From an uncultured Clostridia bacterium (GTDB lineage: Bacteria > Bacillota > Clostridia > Oscillospirales > Ruminococcaceae): a stretch of 64,000 nucleotides of DNA. Each line of letters begins with the position of its first letter. The first letter of the stretch is position 1. The notes under the pieces are model-generated. The model saw only the letters and a program-made list of their open reading frames with translations, was not told where the DNA came from and searched no databases. Shown here in pieces: positions 13,790 to 21,598 of the stretch. The stretch is from contig CANRDI010000002.1 in the NCBI GenBank assembly GCA_947629335.1, positions 62,001 to 126,000 on the forward strand, read 5' to 3'. The position numbers and the translations under genes are program-made.

Positions 13790-14776
13790 ATGACGATACT
13801 GAAAAAACCGCCTTTTATGCAAGAAGCAGGCGGCACAGGACGAAACATTTTCGCGGAGCTTGGAATAGCGATAGTCGTTTTTGTAGCAGCTCAATCCTTA
13901 ATGGGAATAGTCCAGAGCGTGGGTATAGGTCTCGGTTTTTTCTTCGACCCTGAGCTTAGAAAACTCATTGATGAAACCCCGTCAGACCCGTTTGCAATGT
14001 TCAACGAGATGATGACCGCCATAACGTCGTCGCTGTGGGTCATTATTCCTATGCTGTATTCAAATGCGTTTCTGATAGTCAGCTCGATATTCTACTGTAA
14101 GCAGTTTGAAAAGCGCAAAGCAAGATCCATGGGATTTGTGAAGAAAGGCGCTGTGCCGCAGTATCTTATAGGAATATTATGCGGGTTCGCCGTTTTTTCG
14201 GCAATATTCTTCATCTGCCTTCTTATGGGTGGCGTTGAGCTTTCGGGATTTTCCGAATTTACTCCCGAAAAAATCGGCATTTTGGTTCTGTTTTTCTTTG
14301 GCTATCTCATTCAGGGAATGGGAGAAGAGGTTTTCTGCCGTGGGTATCTGATGTCGAGCATAAGCAGAAGATATTCGGCGGTTACGGCAGTTTTAGTGAG
14401 CTCGCTTGTGTTCGCTCTTTTGCATATAGCAAATCCGGGAATTTCGGTGCTGGCGTTTGTAAATTTGTTTTTGTACGGGGTGTTTGCGGCGCTTCTGATG
14501 ATAAGGTTCAACAACATCTGGATAGCGGGTGCGTTCCATTCGCTCTGGAATTTTACTCAGGGCAATTTTTACGGCGTTTCCGTAAGCGGTATGGGAAGTA
14601 TGCCGTCTGTACTTGTATCGGCGCAGACAGATGCGGCTTCGTTCATTAACGGCGGCGCGTTCGGGCTTGAGGGCGGCGTCTGTACTTCGATAGTTACTTT
14701 TACGGGCATTGTTGTGCTTTACATCATGATAAAGCTAAAGGAGAAGAAACATGCTTCCGAAAAACCGCAGAGCTGA
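13790..14776 (+). CDS. CPBP (CAAX/bacteriocin-processing) family intramembrane metalloprotease
   Basis: A 328-residue membrane protein with about 7-8 hydrophobic helices. The Abi/CPBP catalytic motifs are intact: GEEVFCRGYL (EExxxR, about 178-187), FALLHIA (about 204-210) and FHSLWNF (HxxxN, about 244-250). Bacterial members are glutamate-dependent membrane proteases, some involved in bacteriocin immunity; no bacteriocin gene is nearby, so the substrate is unknown. GAGGAG precedes the ATG. The gene stands alone between repeat elements. Confidence 0.9.
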   Translation: MTILKKPPFMQEAGGTGRNIFAELGIAIVVFVAAQSLMGIVQSVGIGLGFFFDPELRKLIDETPSDPFAMFNEMMTAITSSLWVIIPMLYSNAFLIVSSIFYCKQFEKRKARSMGFVKKGAVPQYLIGILCGFAVFSAIFFICLLMGGVELSGFSEFTPEKIGILVLFFFGYLIQGMGEEVFCRGYLMSSISRRYSAVTAVLVSSLVFALLHIANPGISVLAFVNLFLYGVFAALLMIRFNNIWIAGAFHSLWNFTQGNFYGVSVSGMGSMPSVLVSAQTDAASFINGGAFGLEGGVCTSIVTFTGIVVLYIMIKLKEKKHASEKPQS

Positions 14777-15046
14777 AATAATGAGATAACAAAGGCGTTC
14801 CGAAAGGTACACCTTTTATTGTATTTCGTTCAATTAACAAAAGTCCGAATGAACGGAGGTGTCCGCCGAAATCGGAGCGCATTAGAGTTTTTGAAAAAAT
14901 GATTGTAAGACGGAAAACAATTTTGCCCGCTATAGCCGAATAAAAATTTGTGCCAATCATCTGCAATTTTGCAAGTTTGGACATAAAATTATGCAAAATT
15001 TATAAAAATTTCTATAAAAAATCATAAAATATTCGTAAAAATGATA

Positions 15047-15075
15047 TTGACAAATTGCATAAATTCATTTATAAT
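15047..15075 (+). promoter_or_regulatory. Perfect-consensus sigma-A promoter
   Basis: TTGACA (15047-15052), 17-nt spacer, TATAAT (15070-15075). The predicted start near 15082 lies only about 6 nt before a strong terminator hairpin. The rest of the 517-nt gap after the CPBP gene (14777-15046) is AT-rich and shows nothing I recognise. Confidence 0.85.
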
Positions 15076-15087
15076 ATATTCATAAGC

Positions 15088-15117
15088 AAAGGCGCTCAGT
15101 TTTTTGAGCGCCTTTTT
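15088..15117 (+). terminator. Intrinsic terminator immediately after the promoter
   Basis: An 11-bp perfect stem AAAGGCGCTCA / TGAGCGCCTTT with a 6-nt loop, running into TTTTT. Being so close to the promoter, it looks like an attenuator for the ATP-grasp operon 180 nt downstream, or the end of a transcript of only about 35 nt. Confidence 0.8.
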
Positions 15118-15154
15118 CCGATTTGCAGATAAATTTTTCTGTCGAATTAAAATA

Positions 15155-15276
15155 CAGACGGCGAAAAAGCCTCGATATGCCCGCAAATACCGCATTATCT
15201 GCCCATGGCACAAATACTGTTTTGCGAAAAATGCGCCGGCACGCCTTTGACGCAGACGGGGCTTTATCGACAGTCC
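15155..15276 (+). repeat. Dispersed repeat family A, probable long form
   Basis: The right end GACGCAGACGGGGCTTTATC, continuing to GACAGTCCG, matches 13642-13661 and 45448-45470 read on the minus strand, and 60901-60925. The left end CAGACGGCGAAAAAG resembles the CAGACTG tail of the family. The length (about 122 bp) agrees with the 129-bp copy. Confidence 0.6.
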
Positions 15277-15293
15277 GAATTAGGAGTGATATT

Positions 15294-16616
15294 ATGGAAA
15301 ACATAAGTTTTCCTTCCGCAAACGTGAAGGAAATAAACGAGCTTTTGCGAAGATACGGCGTTAAGTTCGGAATTTACAAAAACGGCGAGTTTAAAGAACA
15401 GCTTTTCCCGTTTGACACGATCCCGCGCGTTATATCGGCAGACAGCTTTTCGTATCTCGAAAAAGGACTTATCCAGCGCGTAGATGCGCTTAATATGTTC
15501 CTTTACGATATTTACCACGAAAAGAAAATAATTGCGGATAAAATAATCCCGGAGGAGTTTGTGTATATTTCGAGCGGTTATCTCCCGCAGTGTGAGGGAA
15601 TAACCCCGCCGAAGAAGATCTACAGCCATATTTCGGGAATTGACCTTGTAGAGGGGAAAGACGGAGAATGGTATATTCTTGAAGACAATTTAAGGATACC
15701 GTCGGGCGCGTCTTATCCGCTTATAGCAAGAGAACTTACAAGAACTGCGTCTCCCGACTGTTTTTCACAGAGCGGGATAGTCGATAACCGAAATTATGCA
15801 GAACTGCTGAGATCTGCAATGGACAGCGTAAACTGCGGAGGAATAAACGCAATTCTCACTCCCGGACGATATAACGCCGCATATTTTGAACACAGCTATC
15901 TGGCAGAGCTTACTGGCGCGGCACTCGTTCAGAACAACGAGCTTTTTGTCGAGGACAATATGCTGTTTCAAAAGACATATACCGGCGGAAAAACAAGAAT
16001 AGGCGCGCTTTACCGCCGTATCTCCGACGAATATCTCGACCCGCTCACATTTAATCCTTGCTCGGTCATAGGCGTTCCAAATCTTACGGAGGCATACCGC
16101 GCGGGAAATGTTGCGGTAATAAATGCGCTCGGAAACGGTGTTGCAGACGACAAGGGCATATACTATTTCGTTCCGAAAATGATAAAATATTATCTGAACG
16201 AAGAACCTATACTTAAAAATGCCCCGACTTATCTCCCGTTTTACGAGGAGGACAGGAAATATGTTCTTGAAAATCTTGAAAAGCTCGTTATAAAGGACGT
16301 AGCCGAGGCGGGAGGATACGGCGTTGTATTCGGAAGCGATCTTACTGCCGAAAAACTTGCTGATTTCAGGCAGACAATAATAAACGAGCCGAGGCGCTTT
16401 ATCGCTCAGGAAGTCATCGACTTTAAAGACCTTCCTATCATCGAAAACGGAGAGCAGGTAATGCGAAAGGCGGACCTGAGGGCGTTTGTGCTTTCGGGAG
16501 AAAAAACAAGAGTATGGGCTTCGGGACTTACGCGCTTTTCACGAAATCCCGACAGCTTTGTGGTAAATTCATCTCAGGGCGGAGGTTTTAAAGACACATG
16601 GGTACTATCTCGATAA
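15294..16616 (+). CDS. Circularly permuted type 2 ATP-grasp enzyme (DUF404/DUF407)
   Basis: A 440-residue predicted carboxylate-amine/thiol ligase. Diagnostic segments: FDTIPRVISADSFSYLEKGL (about 40-59), ISGIDLVEGKDGEWYILEDN followed by LRIPSGASY (about 115-143), and the ATP-grasp KDVAEAGGYGVVFG region (about 333-346). Family members occur with alpha-E and transglutaminase-like proteins and, in proteobacteria, with the Anbu proteasome-like peptidase; they are thought to build or attach a small peptide-like product. ATG 15294 is chosen because TAGGAG lies 7 nt upstream; the frame is open further up but there consists of repeat A. The 3' end overlaps the alpha-E gene by 19 nt. Confidence 0.88.
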   Translation: MENISFPSANVKEINELLRRYGVKFGIYKNGEFKEQLFPFDTIPRVISADSFSYLEKGLIQRVDALNMFLYDIYHEKKIIADKIIPEEFVYISSGYLPQCEGITPPKKIYSHISGIDLVEGKDGEWYILEDNLRIPSGASYPLIARELTRTASPDCFSQSGIVDNRNYAELLRSAMDSVNCGGINAILTPGRYNAAYFEHSYLAELTGAALVQNNELFVEDNMLFQKTYTGGKTRIGALYRRISDEYLDPLTFNPCSVIGVPNLTEAYRAGNVAVINALGNGVADDKGIYYFVPKMIKYYLNEEPILKNAPTYLPFYEEDRKYVLENLEKLVIKDVAEAGGYGVVFGSDLTAEKLADFRQTIINEPRRFIAQEVIDFKDLPIIENGEQVMRKADLRAFVLSGEKTRVWASGLTRFSRNPDSFVVNSSQGGGFKDTWVLSR

Positions 16617-17311
16617 TTTCTGTAGAACACAGCGACCGTCTTTTCTGGCTCGGTCGCTATACGGAAAGATTTTTTACGACATTAAAGGCGCTCGAAAAGT
16701 TATACGACAGCGTTATTGACAAGGATCAATACGGCTATAGAGAATATCTTTCGGCGTTCGGACTTTCAGATGTTTATAATGACTATAAGGAATTTTTTAA
16801 GAGCTTTATTTTTGACAGGTCAAACGAAAGCTCCGCGGCATACAGCTTATCAAGAGCTTATGACAACGGCATAGTGCTGCGCGAGGAAATTTCGACAGAA
16901 GCGCTTTCTTTTATACAGTTGGCGCTTGACGATCTCGACAGAGCGCAAAACTCAAATCAGGGTTTAAGGCTTGCGCTGCATCCGATAGAAGATACGATCT
17001 TCGGCTTTTGGGGGTGCGTAGATGACCATGTATGCGACAACGAAACGCGCTATATAATCCACTGCGGAAAAATTATAGAGCGGCTCGATATTTATCTGCG
17101 CCTGAAATATCCGTTTGAAATAATTGACGCGGAGTTCGGAAGGCTTTGCAGATGCCTTTCGGGAATACCGAAAAATTCGCCTTATCACTATAATCAAAAA
17201 CAGCTTTCGTCGCTTGTGGAAATAATGGGACTTAAAGACGGATATACCGAGCAGAAGGACTTGGCTGTGTCGAGCCTTGAAGCGCTTTTTGAACCTACAG
17301 GGAGGTCTTAA
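16598..17311 (+). CDS. Alpha-E domain protein (DUF403)
   Basis: A 237-residue mostly helical protein. The N-terminus SVEHSDRLFWLGRYTERFFT matches the alpha-E motif family (usual form: R-A-x-N-L-F-W-x-G-R-Y-x-E-R). It is shorter than the typical 300-residue members. The biochemical role is not known; it is found almost only beside permuted ATP-grasp genes and may be a partner or scaffold. It overlaps the ATP-grasp gene by 19 nt and is followed after 3 nt by the transglutaminase gene, so the three are surely coexpressed. Confidence 0.85.
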   Translation: MGTISIISVEHSDRLFWLGRYTERFFTTLKALEKLYDSVIDKDQYGYREYLSAFGLSDVYNDYKEFFKSFIFDRSNESSAAYSLSRAYDNGIVLREEISTEALSFIQLALDDLDRAQNSNQGLRLALHPIEDTIFGFWGCVDDHVCDNETRYIIHCGKIIERLDIYLRLKYPFEIIDAEFGRLCRCLSGIPKNSPYHYNQKQLSSLVEIMGLKDGYTEQKDLAVSSLEALFEPTGRS

Positions 17312-17314
17312 AAA

Positions 17315-18088
17315 ATGAAAAAGATAAATTTTGTTTTTTCGACAAAACTTACTTTTGACGATTATGTCGAAGAACATTCAATCGCGCTTCGCTGTATTCC
17401 TCCGGAGACCGAAACACAGCACATTGTGTCCTGTCAGCTTGAAATAACTCCGCTTATAAGTACAAATCGAACGGTCGATGCTTTCGGAAACAACGTTACG
17501 AGCGGCTATATCGCAAAGCCTCACCGTTTTCTTGATTTTGAGGTGAGGTGTACGGCGGAGCTTGACAAAACAAAACGCCGAACGGATTTTATGCCGTGTT
17601 ATAGCCGCTTTTCCGAGTATACAAAGCCCGACGGAGCGTTATATGATTTTCATAGGCAGATAAAAAACGACAGCCTTTCGCCTCTTGAAAGAGCAAAATA
17701 TTATTCGGAGCGGCTGCACGAGATAATGAGCTACGAAACCAATTCGACGACCATTAAAACTACCGCCGCGCAAGCCTTTGCGCAGAAAAAAGGCGTTTGT
17801 CAGGATTTTTCGCATATCATATTGAGCCTTTTGAGAATTGACGGAATACCGTGCCGCTATATTGCGGGACTTACGGAAAGCGGCGGGGAAACGCATAGCT
17901 GGATAGAGGTATGGACGGGAGAATGTTGGAGAGGATTTGACCCGACAAGCGTTATTTTTGTTGAAGACGAGTATATAACGCTTTCACAGGGCTGTGATTT
18001 CGGCGACTGCGCAATCGACAGGGGAGTAATGAAGGGCGCGTTTACTCGTCAGATGCAGCTTGTTTCCTCGCGCATTACGGTAGAATAG
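17315..18088 (+). CDS. Transglutaminase-like cysteine peptidase
   Basis: A 257-residue protein with an N-terminal beta domain (bacterial transglutaminase N-type, about 1-100) and a papain-like transglutaminase core. The catalytic triad can be seen: Cys in KKGVCQDFSHI (about 168), His in GETHSWIEVW (about 202) and Asp in WRGFDPTS (about 217). No signal peptide is evident, so it is cytoplasmic. In this conserved trio it is proposed to cleave or transfer an isopeptide or amide bond made by the ATP-grasp enzyme. The start has GGGAGG upstream and follows the alpha-E stop by 3 nt. Confidence 0.9.
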   Translation: MKKINFVFSTKLTFDDYVEEHSIALRCIPPETETQHIVSCQLEITPLISTNRTVDAFGNNVTSGYIAKPHRFLDFEVRCTAELDKTKRRTDFMPCYSRFSEYTKPDGALYDFHRQIKNDSLSPLERAKYYSERLHEIMSYETNSTTIKTTAAQAFAQKKGVCQDFSHIILSLLRIDGIPCRYIAGLTESGGETHSWIEVWTGECWRGFDPTSVIFVEDEYITLSQGCDFGDCAIDRGVMKGAFTRQMQLVSSRITVE

Positions 18089-18098
18089 AGGTCGGAAG

Positions 18099-19028
18099 AT
18101 GATAAAAAATGTTGTGGGAGCATCGCTTGCGGTAAATGAAAGACTTGTTATCCGCAAAAACAGACTGAAAAACGGAGACGGAAAAAAGCGGCTTTGTATT
18201 GTTACGGGTATTCACGGCGACGAGCTTGAGGGTCAGTATTTGGCATATCTTATCGGAAGCAAAATAAAAGAAAACATCTCGCTTTTAAACGGAACGGTAG
18301 ATATATATCCCGCGCTCAATCCTACGGGAATTGACTCAATAACGCGCGGAATACCGCTTTTTGACCTCGATATGAACAGGATTTTTCCCGGAACAAGCGA
18401 GGGGACAATGCCTGAAACGATATGCGCGGGAATAATCGAAGACATTTCGGGTGCGGATATATGCATTGACGTACATTCGAGCAATATTTTTCTAAAAGAA
18501 CTTCCTCAGATAAGGATAAACGTAAATTCCGCAGATGTTCTTATACCGTATGCGAAAATGCTGAACGTCGATCTTATCTGGGTGCATGAATCGGCTACGG
18601 TCTTAGAATCGACGCTCGCGTTTTCGCTTAATTCAACAGGCACGAAAACGCTTGTAGTAGAAATGGGCGTGGGGATGAGGATAACAAAGGAATATTGTTT
18701 TCAGCTCTGCGAGGGAGTTTTTAACCTTATGAAGCAGCTCGGAATGTGGAGCGGCGATGTAACGGCAGTAAGAGAGCCTATCGTATCGCTAAACGGCGCA
18801 GTAGGTTTTGTTAATTCTGACGCTGCGGGCATTTTCGTTCCGTGCGTCGATTTCGGCGAGACCGTAAGCGCGGGAAATCATATCGGCGACGTACTCGACC
18901 CGCTTTCGGGCGAAGTTGCGGAGAAAGTAAACGCAGTGTGCGACGGAATGATATTTACGCTCCGCGAATATCCTATAGTGTTCGGCGGTTCGCTTTTAGC
19001 GCGTATATTGCAGACAAAAGGAGCGTAA
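18099..19028 (+). CDS. M14/AstE-AspA type zinc carboxypeptidase or deacylase (active form)
   Basis: A 309-residue succinylglutamate desuccinylase/aspartoacylase-family protein. All catalytic positions are present: zinc ligands His and Glu in TGIHGDELEG (about 46-55), third ligand His in CIDVHSSN (about 123-130), substrate Arg in DMNRIFPG (about 91-98), and the general-base Glu in LVVEMGVGM (about 186-194). A C-terminal lipoyl/barrel-sandwich-like domain (ICVP..AAG and GNHIGDVLDPLSG-type turns) follows. It should hydrolyse an amide next to a carboxylate. It lies 10 nt after the transglutaminase gene, so it probably acts on the product of the ATP-grasp trio. Confidence 0.87.
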   Translation: MIKNVVGASLAVNERLVIRKNRLKNGDGKKRLCIVTGIHGDELEGQYLAYLIGSKIKENISLLNGTVDIYPALNPTGIDSITRGIPLFDLDMNRIFPGTSEGTMPETICAGIIEDISGADICIDVHSSNIFLKELPQIRINVNSADVLIPYAKMLNVDLIWVHESATVLESTLAFSLNSTGTKTLVVEMGVGMRITKEYCFQLCEGVFNLMKQLGMWSGDVTAVREPIVSLNGAVGFVNSDAAGIFVPCVDFGETVSAGNHIGDVLDPLSGEVAEKVNAVCDGMIFTLREYPIVFGGSLLARILQTKGA

Positions 19029-19030
19029 AA

Positions 19031-19957
19031 ATGAGAAAAGAAATTCTTTATTCGCTTAGATCGCCTTATCGGGAGAGCCTTGATATAATCGGTTTCAAAT
19101 TCGGAGGAGAAGAAAAAACGCTCGCAGTTGTAGGGGCAATGCGCGGAAATGAAGTACAGCAGATGTATGTCTGCTCAAAGCTCATATCACAGCTTAAAAT
19201 CCTCGAAGCGGCGGGGGAAATTTCTCAAAGCCGAGGGATAATGGTCGTTCCGTGTGTCAACTATTATTCAATGAACATCGGAAAGCGCTTTTGGACAATG
19301 GACAACACCGATATAAACCGTATGTTTCCGGGCTATGAATTAGGAGAAACTACACAGAGGATAGCTGACGGACTTTTCAGAAAGATCCAAGGTTTTGAAT
19401 ACGGCATACAAATGGTAAGTTTTTACCAGCCGGGAAATTTTCTCCCTCATGTAAAGATAATGGAAACGGGATTTACGGACTCAAATTTGATGAAGCTTTT
19501 CGGAATGAGGTTCGGGATAGTCCGAACGCCGCGCCCGTACGACACGACTACGCTGAATTACAACTGGCAGATATGGGAAACAAAAGCGTTTTCGATGTAT
19601 ACAAATGAAACGTCAAGGATTGACGAAAACTCCGCGAATGAGGCTGTAGAGGGGATACTGCGCTTTATGGCGAATACGGGAATGATAACGAAAAAGATCC
19701 ATTCGGGCTATCAGACGGAAATAATTTCGGAAAACAGCATAAGCCAGATACATTCAAAAACGGGAGGATTATTTATAAGTATTGTTAAAATGGGAGCGCA
19801 GGTGGCGAAAAACGAGCTTTTAGGAAAGGTATGCGATCCGCTTGACGGAGAGCTATCGAGCGAGATACGCGCCGATTGCAGCGGGATAGTTTATTTTGAA
19901 TATTCCGATCCGCTTATAAATGAAAATACTGTTTGCTTTAAGATAATCAGAGATTAG
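19031..19957 (+). CDS. M14/AstE-AspA paralogue with a lost active site (pseudoenzyme)
   Basis: A 308-residue paralogue of the preceding gene that aligns with it almost without gaps but lacks the catalytic residues. HGDE has become RGNE (zinc-ligand His to Arg), DVHSSN has become QMVSFY (third ligand His to Val), and the general-base Glu in VVEMG is Tyr in SMYTN. The substrate-binding Arg (DINRMFPG) and the C-terminal barrel domain are kept. The intact, well-translated frame (start 2 nt after the previous stop) argues against a decaying pseudogene; it may be a regulatory or structural partner of the active enzyme, or bind the same ligand without cleaving it. An upstream extension of the frame overlaps the active paralogue and is not used. 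Confidence 0.83.
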   Translation: MRKEILYSLRSPYRESLDIIGFKFGGEEKTLAVVGAMRGNEVQQMYVCSKLISQLKILEAAGEISQSRGIMVVPCVNYYSMNIGKRFWTMDNTDINRMFPGYELGETTQRIADGLFRKIQGFEYGIQMVSFYQPGNFLPHVKIMETGFTDSNLMKLFGMRFGIVRTPRPYDTTTLNYNWQIWETKAFSMYTNETSRIDENSANEAVEGILRFMANTGMITKKIHSGYQTEIISENSISQIHSKTGGLFISIVKMGAQVAKNELLGKVCDPLDGELSSEIRADCSGIVYFEYSDPLINENTVCFKIIRD

Positions 19958-19966
19958 AGGTGCTTT

Positions 19967-20164
19967 ATGATAAAAAAGAACAACGGCAATCTTTCGGGAG
20001 GACTTGTGGATAAACATTCTGCGTGTGATTTTCCTTTTAAGACCGCGACTGATGAGGAATATACCGACGAACAGCTTGTGGAAACTGCAAACGAGGAGTT
20101 AAACGAGCGCGTTGAGAATAAAAAGATTGGCGATAATCCGAAAGCGTTCGGATTTAAAAAGTAG
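19967..20164 (+). CDS. Small unknown protein at the end of the ATP-grasp/M14 operon
   Basis: A 65-residue acidic peptide with a good ribosome site (AGAGGTG, 6 nt before the ATG), 9 nt after the M14 paralogue. I do not recognise a family. Visible features: NLSGGLVDKH near the N-terminus, one Cys (about residue 19), a Glu-rich middle (ATDEEYTDEQLVETANEEL) and a Lys-rich end. There is no TM segment or signal peptide. Its place makes it a candidate substrate or carrier for the ATP-grasp enzyme, but that is conjecture; it could equally be an unrelated small protein. Confidence 0.6.
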   Translation: MIKKNNGNLSGGLVDKHSACDFPFKTATDEEYTDEQLVETANEELNERVENKKIGDNPKAFGFKK

Positions 20165-20285
20165 TTGATGATAAAAACAATCGGGGAGCTTATGTTCCCT
20201 GATACAGTTTGTATAAAAATCTATTTGCGGTTCTTTTCAAACGATATTTTTCTAAATAACATACACTCGCCCCAACCCCTTGACT

Positions 20286-20390
20286 CCCTTCCCCGAAGGG
20301 GAAGGGGGAAAAATTGCGGGGGCTGCCGACCCCGCTGCCCCCGTTGAGGGAAAACTTTTGAAAAAGTTTTCCCTCAAACTCCTTTTCAAA
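20286..20390. repeat. Hairpin cluster with dispersed repeat family B
   Basis: Three hairpins in a row: CCCTTCCCC/GGGGAAGGG (20286-20306), CGGGGG/CCCCCG (20317-20343), and a perfect 16-bp inverted repeat TTGAGGGAAAACTTTT / AAAAGTTTTCCCTCAA (20344-20377) with a 2-nt centre. The last one and its flank (CTCCTTTTCAAAA) recur at 36684-36730. The cluster lies between convergent genes and may end transcription from both sides. The remaining part of this gap (20165-20285) shows nothing clear. Confidence 0.7.
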
Positions 20391-20449
20391 ACTTTTATGC
20401 AAAGTGCTGAAACGGAAATGCACTTAATTCTAAAAGAAGCTTTATTAAA

Positions 20450-21598
20450 TTACACTTCAACATCCGCCGAATAGTCAACTCCGTCAATGCCGAAACCGAA
20501 CATAGCGTAAAAATCTTTCCAGTAGCCGTCAATATCTGTAAATTCCTTGAAATTATTCTGGTCAAGTTTCTGCCATATTTCGGAAACTTCGGCTTGGATT
20601 TCGGGCTTCATTTCAAGGTCGTCCATTCTTATCCTGCCCTCGCTGTCAAGGTTCAGGTCGTTTTCGGAAATTCTCCTGAAAAGCCTCTGCATTTGCTCTA
20701 TACAGCCCTCGTGAGTTCCGTGCTGTTTCATAACCTTGTACAGAATTGAGATGTAAAGCGGAACTATCGGGATTGCCGCGCTTGACTGGGTTACGAGCGC
20801 CTTGTTTACGGAAATATATGCGCGTATGCCGCTGTTTGTAATTCTTCTTGAACTTTCGAGCAAATCGGCTTTTGCTCTGCCGATACTGCCCTCGTAGTAC
20901 ATCGGGTGTGTTATTTCGGGACCGATATAAGAATATGCAATCGTTATGGCATTGTCCTCGATTGCGTCCGCTTTTTTAAGCGCGTCAATCCACATTTCCC
21001 AGTCCTCTCCGCCCATAACTTTTACGGTGGCTTCGATTTCTTCTTCTGTCGCAGGCTCTATCGTAACTTCGGAAACAGTGTTGTTTCTAAGGTCAATGGT
21101 CTTGTTGGTATAGCTTTTGTCTGTTGTTTTGAGAACACTTTTGTAAACAACATCGCCTACCGTTCTTCTCGGAGCGGCGAGTGAATAAATAACCATATCG
21201 ACCTTTCCGAGATCGGCTTTTATAATGTCGATTATTTCCTTTTTACATTCTTCGGAATATGCGTCGCCGTTTACTGTTTTTGCATAAAGTCCGTCCTCGG
21301 CGGCAAATTTTTCAAAAGCCTTTGTGTTGTACCAGCCCGAAGTGCCTGTTTTATTTCCCGAACCTTCCTTGTCGAACATAACGCCGAGCGTAGCCGCGCC
21401 CATTCCGAATGCTGCGGAAATTCTCGACGCAAGCCCGTATCCCATTGACGAGCCTAAAACGAGAACTTTCTTCGCGCAGTATCCGCTCATTTTTCCTTTT
21501 GACTTAACATAGTCTATCTGCTTTTTGACAGCTTTTTCACAGCCTACGGGATGCGCCGTTGTGCAGATAAATCCCCTTACTTTTGGTTCAACTACCAT
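20450..21598 (-). CDS. fabV: Trans-2-enoyl-ACP/CoA reductase, FabV/Ter family
   Basis: A 382-residue NADH-dependent enoyl reductase. The N-terminus VRGFICTTAHPVGCEKAV and the nucleotide-binding VLVLGSSMGYGLASRI are typical of FabV. The catalytic Tyr-x8-Lys is visible in YYEGSIGRAKADL (about 236-248). The family reduces trans-2-enoyl-ACP in fatty acid synthesis (FabV) or crotonyl-CoA (Ter); sequence alone does not settle which. The fatty-acid operon in this window contains no FabI/FabK/FabL, so FabV may supply that step. GGAGGTAG precedes the ATG, and a near-perfect promoter lies 50 nt upstream. Confidence 0.92.
   Translation of the reverse strand: MVVEPKVRGFICTTAHPVGCEKAVKKQIDYVKSKGKMSGYCAKKVLVLGSSMGYGLASRISAAFGMGAATLGVMFDKEGSGNKTGTSGWYNTKAFEKFAAEDGLYAKTVNGDAYSEECKKEIIDIIKADLGKVDMVIYSLAAPRRTVGDVVYKSVLKTTDKSYTNKTIDLRNNTVSEVTIEPATEEEIEATVKVMGGEDWEMWIDALKKADAIEDNAITIAYSYIGPEITHPMYYEGSIGRAKADLLESSRRITNSGIRAYISVNKALVTQSSAAIPIVPLYISILYKVMKQHGTHEGCIEQMQRLFRRISENDLNLDSEGRIRMDDLEMKPEIQAEVSEIWQKLDQNNFKEFTDIDGYWKDFYAMFGFGIDGVDYSADVEV

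Follow-up and report, generated by a model that had tools for sequence, protein, structure and literature searches.

What does an operon do that carries the three genes known to accompany the proteasome-like peptidase Anbu, and two M14-type hydrolase genes in the stead of Anbu itself? This question is raised by a locus in a 64,000-nucleotide (nt) stretch from an uncultured Clostridia bacterium (family Ruminococcaceae; contig CANRDI010000002.1, positions 62,001 to 126,000), hereafter the window. Here we describe how five genes of this locus, A to E, recur in other Clostridia, and how the promoter and hairpin leader ahead of them also appear ahead of nitrogen genes. We think that this nitrogen link is the main clue to the job of the operon. 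The letter L with a number stands for a fetched locus, G for a genome (G000 being that of the window) and C for a contig of G000.

The five-gene unit and its recurrence in Clostridia

All genes of the operon lie on the plus strand. Gene A (15294..16616, 440 amino acids) resembles the circularly permuted (CP) type 2 ATP-grasp ligases (Pfam CP_ATPgrasp_2, 2e-137), and its profile matches PDB 3n6x at 2.6e-133. It is the sole PF04174 match in G000 (2.48 Mb, 50 contigs, completeness rating 100%), and a second CP-ATP-grasp copy was not found there. Next, gene B (16598..17311, 237 amino acids) encodes an alpha-E protein (Alpha-E, 8.2e-20) and gene C (17315..18088, 257 amino acids) a transglutaminase-like protein (Transglut_core 1e-16, Bact_transglu_N 3.4e-12), so that the trio families are adjacent and in that order. 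Two paralogues of the M14 AstE/AspA type follow, namely D (18099..19028, 309 amino acids; AstE_AspA_cat 2e-21), a zinc hydrolase predicted to be active, and E (19031..19957, 308 amino acids; AstE_AspA_cat 1.6e-11), predicted to be dead. Open reading frame F (19967..20164) starts 9 nt past E and encodes a 65-residue peptide with no Pfam or NCBIfam family above cut-off. The coordinates and Pfam matches confirm the trio and M14 pair described in an earlier note on this DNA. B overlaps A by 19 nt, and the remaining gaps within the six reading frames are of 2-10 nt.

We found a match to A in 18 of 61 genomes (the window genome and 60 relatives), 17 of them in the same genus and one in another family of the order. 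The order A-B-C-D-E is constant in the loci of these relatives (tblastn), given a long enough contig and whole genes; L036, L039 and L041 are decayed. In a sample of the class, full-length A is present in 12 of 391 Clostridia genomes, while D (E<=1e-60) and E (E<=1e-30) share one set of 15 genomes. All 12 genomes with full-length A also carry D and E, and the co-occurrence over the 391 genomes has a hypergeometric probability of 2e-20, uncorrected for kinship. Nine further genomes have partial or weak matches to A (eight distant matches and a 57-position fragment that contains a stop) and are without D or E at these thresholds.

As for named genomes, the best 80 of 567 loci were kept, a choice that leaves distant trio operons unsampled. 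ABCDE is found in 68 of these 80, 11 run into the contig end before D or E completes, and one, in Oscillibacter valericigenes An890 (L147), is decayed; all five genes are present in 68 of the 69 uncut loci. Most of the 80 records are titled Ruminococcus, Lachnospiraceae or other Clostridia, and ABCDE is present in Ruminococcus albus (L099); Succiniclasticum (L148), Acidaminococcaceae (L155) and Treponema (L153) also occur among the titles. The D-E pair of L146 and L154 is divergent and lies upstream of A, which indicates that the link between the trio and D-E outlives rearrangement. Some contigs were fetched twice (e.g. L025/L079, L028/L081, L031/L117; window/L043). Judged by comparison across these genomes, A to E are a recurrent unit of Clostridia, of five genes and not six, beyond chance across many families.

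These counts support the proposal, made in the earlier note, that the pathway here exists in a distinct form that has an M14 pair and lacks Anbu. The pair is beside the trio in most relatives, and Anbu was not found, with no PF00227 (Proteasome) match in the whole 2.48 Mb of G000 by a search that was positive in 10 of 14 control genomes. The small peptide fared otherwise. It had been put forward as a member or substrate of the system, and tblastn (E<=0.01) finds F in none of the best 80 of 567 named loci and in none of 33 other stretches of relatives, some of which end before reaching past E. Furthermore, the genes downstream of the operon vary among 26 loci compared. F is rejected as an operon member; of the co-occurrence expected in Clostridia, the M14 pair stands (12/12 genomes, 68/80 loci) and the small gene does not (0/80).

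The two M14 proteins differ at their catalytic positions. D has the zinc ligands H39, E42 and H126 and the catalytic Glu E188, and keeps these residues in relatives. At the same positions E has R38, E41, V129 and Y190, and in every readable relative two of its three zinc ligands and the catalytic Glu are replaced. The claim of one active and one dead enzyme therefore holds at the level of residues, and E appears to be a conserved pseudo-enzyme of D's family. In gene C the triad Cys162-His194-Asp209 is intact, and these residues are retained in 98/98, 96/97 and 96/96 readable loci, respectively (the counts of residue conservation include repeat contigs and omit L043).

In terms of known enzymes, D and E match the DoeB and CphZ structures over their full length. 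DoeB/EutE, an N-acetyl-L-2,4-diaminobutyrate deacetylase of the M14 AstE/AspA type, is at 19-20% identity, and the cut-off of the DoeB equivalog NCBIfam TIGR02994 (402.7 bits) is not reached by D (64.3 bits) or E (48 bits). Unlike DoeB, D is paired with a dead paralogue. The cyanophycin dipeptide hydrolase CphZ, at 14-16% identity, is a fold match only; it hydrolyses beta-Asp-Arg and beta-Asp-Lys, downstream in the pathway of cyanophycin synthetase and cyanophycinase. G000 also has an unlinked relative of D (C4:68499, 47% identity) and an unlinked E-type protein (C4:20678, 46% identity). In genome G224 (L159, 1480-9739) a lone D-E pair follows an amino-acid ATP-binding cassette (ABC) transporter, a PucR regulator and a GabT-like aminotransferase, a neighbourhood suggestive of a cluster for salvaging N-acyl amino acids.

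The hairpin leader and the nitrogen genes that carry it

Ahead of gene A, on the plus strand at 15047..15075, is the promoter TTGACA-17-TATAAT, with 12 of 12 consensus positions. The promoter scan gave 10 promoter-like sites against a shuffle mean of 10.4, which is no excess, and this is the only 12/12 site. Immediately past it, at 15080..15120 on the same strand, lies the leader element, composed of GCAA, a GC-rich hairpin (15088-15115) and a T-run. The earlier note mentions neither this promoter and leader nor a link to nitrogen. Covariance model R1 scores it at 40 bits (E 8.5e-8), the window being one of the 44 training rows. The same layout of promoter, GCAA, hairpin and T-run is seen ahead of A in relatives of several families, with tandem copies in some Lachnospiraceae.

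The alignment holds 44 of 57 leader sequences, after 13 near-duplicate, truncated or doubtful ones were dropped. In its 10-pair stem, 97.5% of cells are standard pairs and 47 cells are changed on both sides, values reached by 0 of 500 shuffles in either case. Folded leaders form mostly a single hairpin with variable loop length. The ANTAR dual-hexaloop antiterminator substrate has two hairpins with six-base loops.

Rfam 15 has no match at the element (E<=1, window 14000-21000). On 16 loci, two matches below the gathering score overlap element places, freshwater-2 (L184, minus strand, E 0.03) and STnc40 (L196, E 0.87), and both are taken for chance. No description of the leader was found in Rfam or in the literature searched, whose coverage leaves out most subscription papers. 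The nearest likeness we note is with the glnA and Downstream-peptide RNA motifs, nitrogen leaders of cyanobacteria. According to excerpts of PMC2864571, these are also leader RNAs, and the glnA motifs precede genes for PII, glutamine synthetase (GS), glutamate synthase and ammonium transporters, some in tandem. The Clostridia element differs in being a single hairpin and T-run directly past the promoter, and neither Rfam family matches in the stretches searched (window 14000-21000 and the 16 loci).

We then define a clostridial nitrogen-leader group, in which a CAARGRYGY hairpin and a T-run follow a consensus promoter at a distance of at most 25 nt, and the leader of the window belongs to it. 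A first pattern search (promoter and CAARGRYGY) in 26 hand-picked Clostridia genomes found 50 sites, against 7 for the reversed pattern used as control. Nitrogen-assimilation or glutamine-using genes account for 28 of the 50, gene A for 8, and other or unknown genes for 12; the remaining two are the lone D-E pair of G224 and a FUSC-HAD gene (L212, G016). The 28 comprise GS type III (7), GS type I (3), AmtB (4), an amidotransferase that we take to be GltB1-type (5), CarA (3), PurF-like (2), and one each of GltB, AsnB-like, PII and a GlnQ-like ABC protein. These names come from a reading of the translations, with PurF and AsnB seen as glutamine-amidotransferase domains only. Pfam, run on ten representatives, gave a fitting family in nine, the GltB1-type amidotransferase fragment being without match.

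When 331 genomes were searched with a stricter pattern, 42 of them had sites, 56 in all, and no control site was among the matches listed. Some of the 56 repeat the first search (G000, G049, G054, G059, G135, G199, G242, G302, G354), and both L250 sites are repeats. The 26 sites on 24 newly fetched loci precede, by eye, GS type III (9), AmtB (6), GltB1-type (3), AsnA-like (1), GatD-like (1), ATP synthase subunit a (1) and ThrS (1), with four sites without a clear gene. R1, although trained on gene-A leaders only, detects the element in 23 of the 28 nitrogen-gene loci of the first set (E<=0.05) and at 23 of the 26 sites of the second (E<=0.01). In the first set, one of the L193 matches coincides with that of L216, and L209 scores best on the opposite strand. 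As far as sequence can tell, ABCDE and nitrogen genes of Clostridia have a start signal in common.

Some of these loci show further particulars. In L249, L250 and L193, GS type III and GltB1-type amidotransferase genes are divergent, each with its own leader copy. The leader pattern is also found ahead of an apparent ATP synthase subunit a in two genomes (L248, 35 bits with R1; L211, no R1 match), which a nitrogen regulon does not explain. Lastly, four loci of genus g50 (L242, L244, L245, L246) have strong elements of 30-39 bits without a convincing protein gene close downstream, and these possibly precede a small RNA or a short gene.

Features around the operon

Of 90 loci, 15 have a fusion of a FUSC_2/ArAE membrane domain with a Cof-type HAD hydrolase next to the operon or close by, upstream or downstream (for instance L079, 4804-6084). 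In the class sample 20 of 391 genomes have this fusion, and just 4 of the 20 have A as well (hypergeometric 0.002), so it was rejected as a sixth member and is regarded as accessory. In 10 of 90 loci a protein with a partial RelA/SpoT domain is encoded close to the operon, past E or ahead of A (L073, 13111-14142; L099, 12807-13793; and 8 others). In the window, a stretch with inverted repeats beyond F (20320-20446, minus strand) matches Rfam NsiR9, nitrogen stress-induced RNA 9, at E 7.9e-5, but its 35.9 bits fall short of the gathering score, which is 90. This is probably a dispersed repeat rather than NsiR9.

Proposed function, rival explanations and relation to Anbu

We lean towards reading ABCDE as an operon for nitrogen limitation, whose products build an amide-linked nitrogen compound and break it down again, with D and E in the place of Anbu. 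By comparison, the unit A-E recurs in Clostridia, D has an intact zinc-amidohydrolase site beside a conserved pseudo-enzyme of its family, and a strong promoter runs directly into a conserved hairpin with a T-run, this promoter and motif being found also at clostridial genes for GS, AmtB, glutamate synthase, PII and glutamine-amidotransferases. The hairpin may act as an attenuator that is read through under nitrogen shortage. ATP-grasp ligases activate a carboxylate with ATP and join it to an amine, and A would in this way form an isopeptide or N-acyl amino acid, either small or protein-borne, on which B and C would act. D, with E as a binding or specificity subunit, would then hydrolyse the amide and free an amino acid, by analogy with CphZ on beta-Asp-Arg and DoeB on N-acetyl-diaminobutyrate. 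D and E would hold the position that Anbu holds in proteobacteria, and could also work without A-C on amides from elsewhere. That D cuts an amide made by A, already suggested in the earlier note, we infer, together with a D-E complex, ligation by A, the roles of B and C, and control by read-through.

A more far-reaching version is offered more tentatively. Here a promoter-proximal attenuator (a GCAARGRYGY hairpin and T-run right past the -10 box), undescribed so far, controls many nitrogen genes of Clostridia, and ABCDE belongs to this regulon as a nitrogen-storage or salvage amide cycle, in which a zinc hydrolase and its obligate dead partner replace Anbu.

Several observations count against the favoured account of a nitrogen-limitation operon. 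A shared start signal says nothing about chemistry. Three class genomes (L159-L161) have D-E without A. Two genus mates, L039 and L041, keep whole D and E genes next to an A and a B that are broken or missing (in L041, C is also partial), and in L036 D itself is reduced to a fragment. D and E whole beside a broken trio, and D-E without A, mean that the pair need not act on the product of A.

The leader has its own exceptions. The fixed pattern is ahead of A in 61 of 107 loci, not all, a count that includes repeat contigs and at least one match that looks spurious (L155); of the 46 loci lacking it, 25 were looked at with relaxed criteria, and 5 of these have a likely element (L095, L100, L103, L108, L119). 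Two of the five covariation measures, the counts of pairs and of pair types, are weaker, being reached by 55 and 7 of 500 shuffles. A lone D-E leader (L178), three CarA, one AmtB and one GS type I are positive by pattern and negative by R1, and the T-run is unseen at four nitrogen sites (L199, L203, L220, L224). Among the 150 of 1688 first-look candidates of G000 that were scored, a single copy exceeds 25 bits with R1, so that the regulon is read in relatives and not in this genome. The five other R1 rows of G000 (18.9-24.3 bits) come from four places, of which one matches on both strands, and by eye they look like plain terminators. On the candidates scored, the leader as a multi-copy element of G000 was accordingly rejected; a looser pattern finds a second site on C10 without a clear gene (L215). 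The nitrogen genes of G000 may carry a leader variant or may have been missed.

The strongest rivals are protein tagging and independent amide salvage by D and E under a shared signal. In the first, proteins are tagged by A and C with a peptide or an amino acid, and the tag is taken off again by D/E, or in proteobacteria by Anbu. This is the published proposal for the trio, from Iyer et al. 2009 as cited in excerpts of PMC5666114 and PMC6376114, and the intact Cys-His-Asp triad of C agrees with it. However, D and E resemble small-molecule enzymes (DoeB, CphZ, AspA), the leader places the operon among genes of amino-acid nitrogen metabolism, and an experiment demonstrating a tagged protein was not found in the literature searched; we hold tagging to be rather unlikely. 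In the salvage account, D/E act as a deacylase or isopeptidase that scavenges amides from food or cell turnover, and the trio is a separate system with nothing but the nitrogen signal in common. D-E without A in 3 of 15 genomes, once beside the ABC transporter, PucR and GabT-like genes and with the same leader pattern, fits such independence, as do the survival of D/E after the trio in L039 and L041 and the unlinked D and E paralogues of G000. The retention of D and E in all 12 class genomes with full-length A, and of all five genes in 68 of 69 uncut named loci (best 80 of 567), speaks for a tie between trio and pair, and we think the salvage account improbable.

Two further explanations carry much less weight. 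The hairpin could be an ordinary terminator of the upstream gene with no control role for the operon. It does resemble an intrinsic terminator, and four weaker R1 places in G000 (22-25 bits) resemble, on inspection by eye, plain terminators at gene ends. But the hairpin is 3' of a consensus promoter and in the sense of the operon, its CAARGRYGY start is common to dozens of nitrogen-gene leaders, and the pattern exceeds its reversed control by 50 to 7 and, among the matches listed, by 56 to 0, which makes a mere terminator very unlikely. The idea of a peptide natural product, with F as substrate of A and D/E trimming it, draws on the position of F, 9 nt past E in the window. It is close to refuted, given the absence of F from the best 80 named loci and the 33 other stretches and the varied genes downstream of the operon.

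As for the trio elsewhere, the Anbu operon of proteobacteria and cyanobacteria (ATP-grasp, alpha-E, transglutaminase, Anbu) has its first three genes in common with the operon of the window. The Clostridia operon differs in that Anbu is absent and an active and a dead M14 hydrolase, as predicted, are in its stead. A-like proteins are also found in 117 PLSDB plasmid records, at 27-46% identity among the matches listed. Seven plasmid trio loci outside Clostridia have no D or E within 6 kb, and in the four with a gene table no Anbu is annotated beside the trio genes, nor, in one of them, an alpha-E gene. Such trio genes, on Hymenobacter, Deinococcus and Rhizobium plasmids (the gene table being incomplete), indicate that company with Anbu is not the sole known state of the trio, and its description as the companion of Anbu, in the earlier note, is too narrow. 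Within the loci sampled, the M14 pair is the Clostridia-side partner of the trio.

Control by nitrogen limitation, reported for the operon of proteobacteria, is a likeness to the Clostridia version (excerpts of PMC5491218 and PMC8050072). The Burkholderia cenocepacia trio cluster I35_5080-83 is at -6.0 to -9.4 in an ntrC mutant and depends on NtrC/sigma54 (PMC5491218, in part). For Pseudomonas putida, nitrate against ammonium gives log2 values of 4.4 for PP_2685 (proteasome beta-like) and 4.0 for PP_2688 (CP-ATP-grasp), both higher on nitrate (PMC8050072, in part), and in marine metagenomes the trio domains group with urea metabolism, according to a portion of PMC3597751. The means of control differ, as Burkholderia uses NtrC/sigma54 (PMC5491218) and the Clostridia operon has the promoter-proximal hairpin leader common to GS and AmtB genes.

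The trio itself is known; its Clostridia version, with M14 pair and leader, is a new variant. No text naming both ATP-grasp and succinylglutamate desuccinylase was found in the literature searched (most subscription papers and Iyer et al. 2009 lie outside its coverage), and the job of the trio is unestablished there. In the sections of PMC6376114 consulted, the ATP-grasp protein of Yersinia bercovieri releases phosphate from ATP, Anbu of the same species cleaved none of the tested peptides, and specific interaction of the operon proteins was undetected. The D/E pair provides an enzyme of known zinc chemistry, which can be assayed in the stead of Anbu, and a conserved dead partner for study. 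Furthermore, the leader would provide a readable nitrogen regulon in gut Clostridia. Two unrelated control signals, NtrC/sigma54 in Burkholderia and the leader hairpin in Clostridia, both point to nitrogen, and the question of what the operon does thereby becomes testable in culturable gut anaerobes, by way of nitrogen source and small amides.

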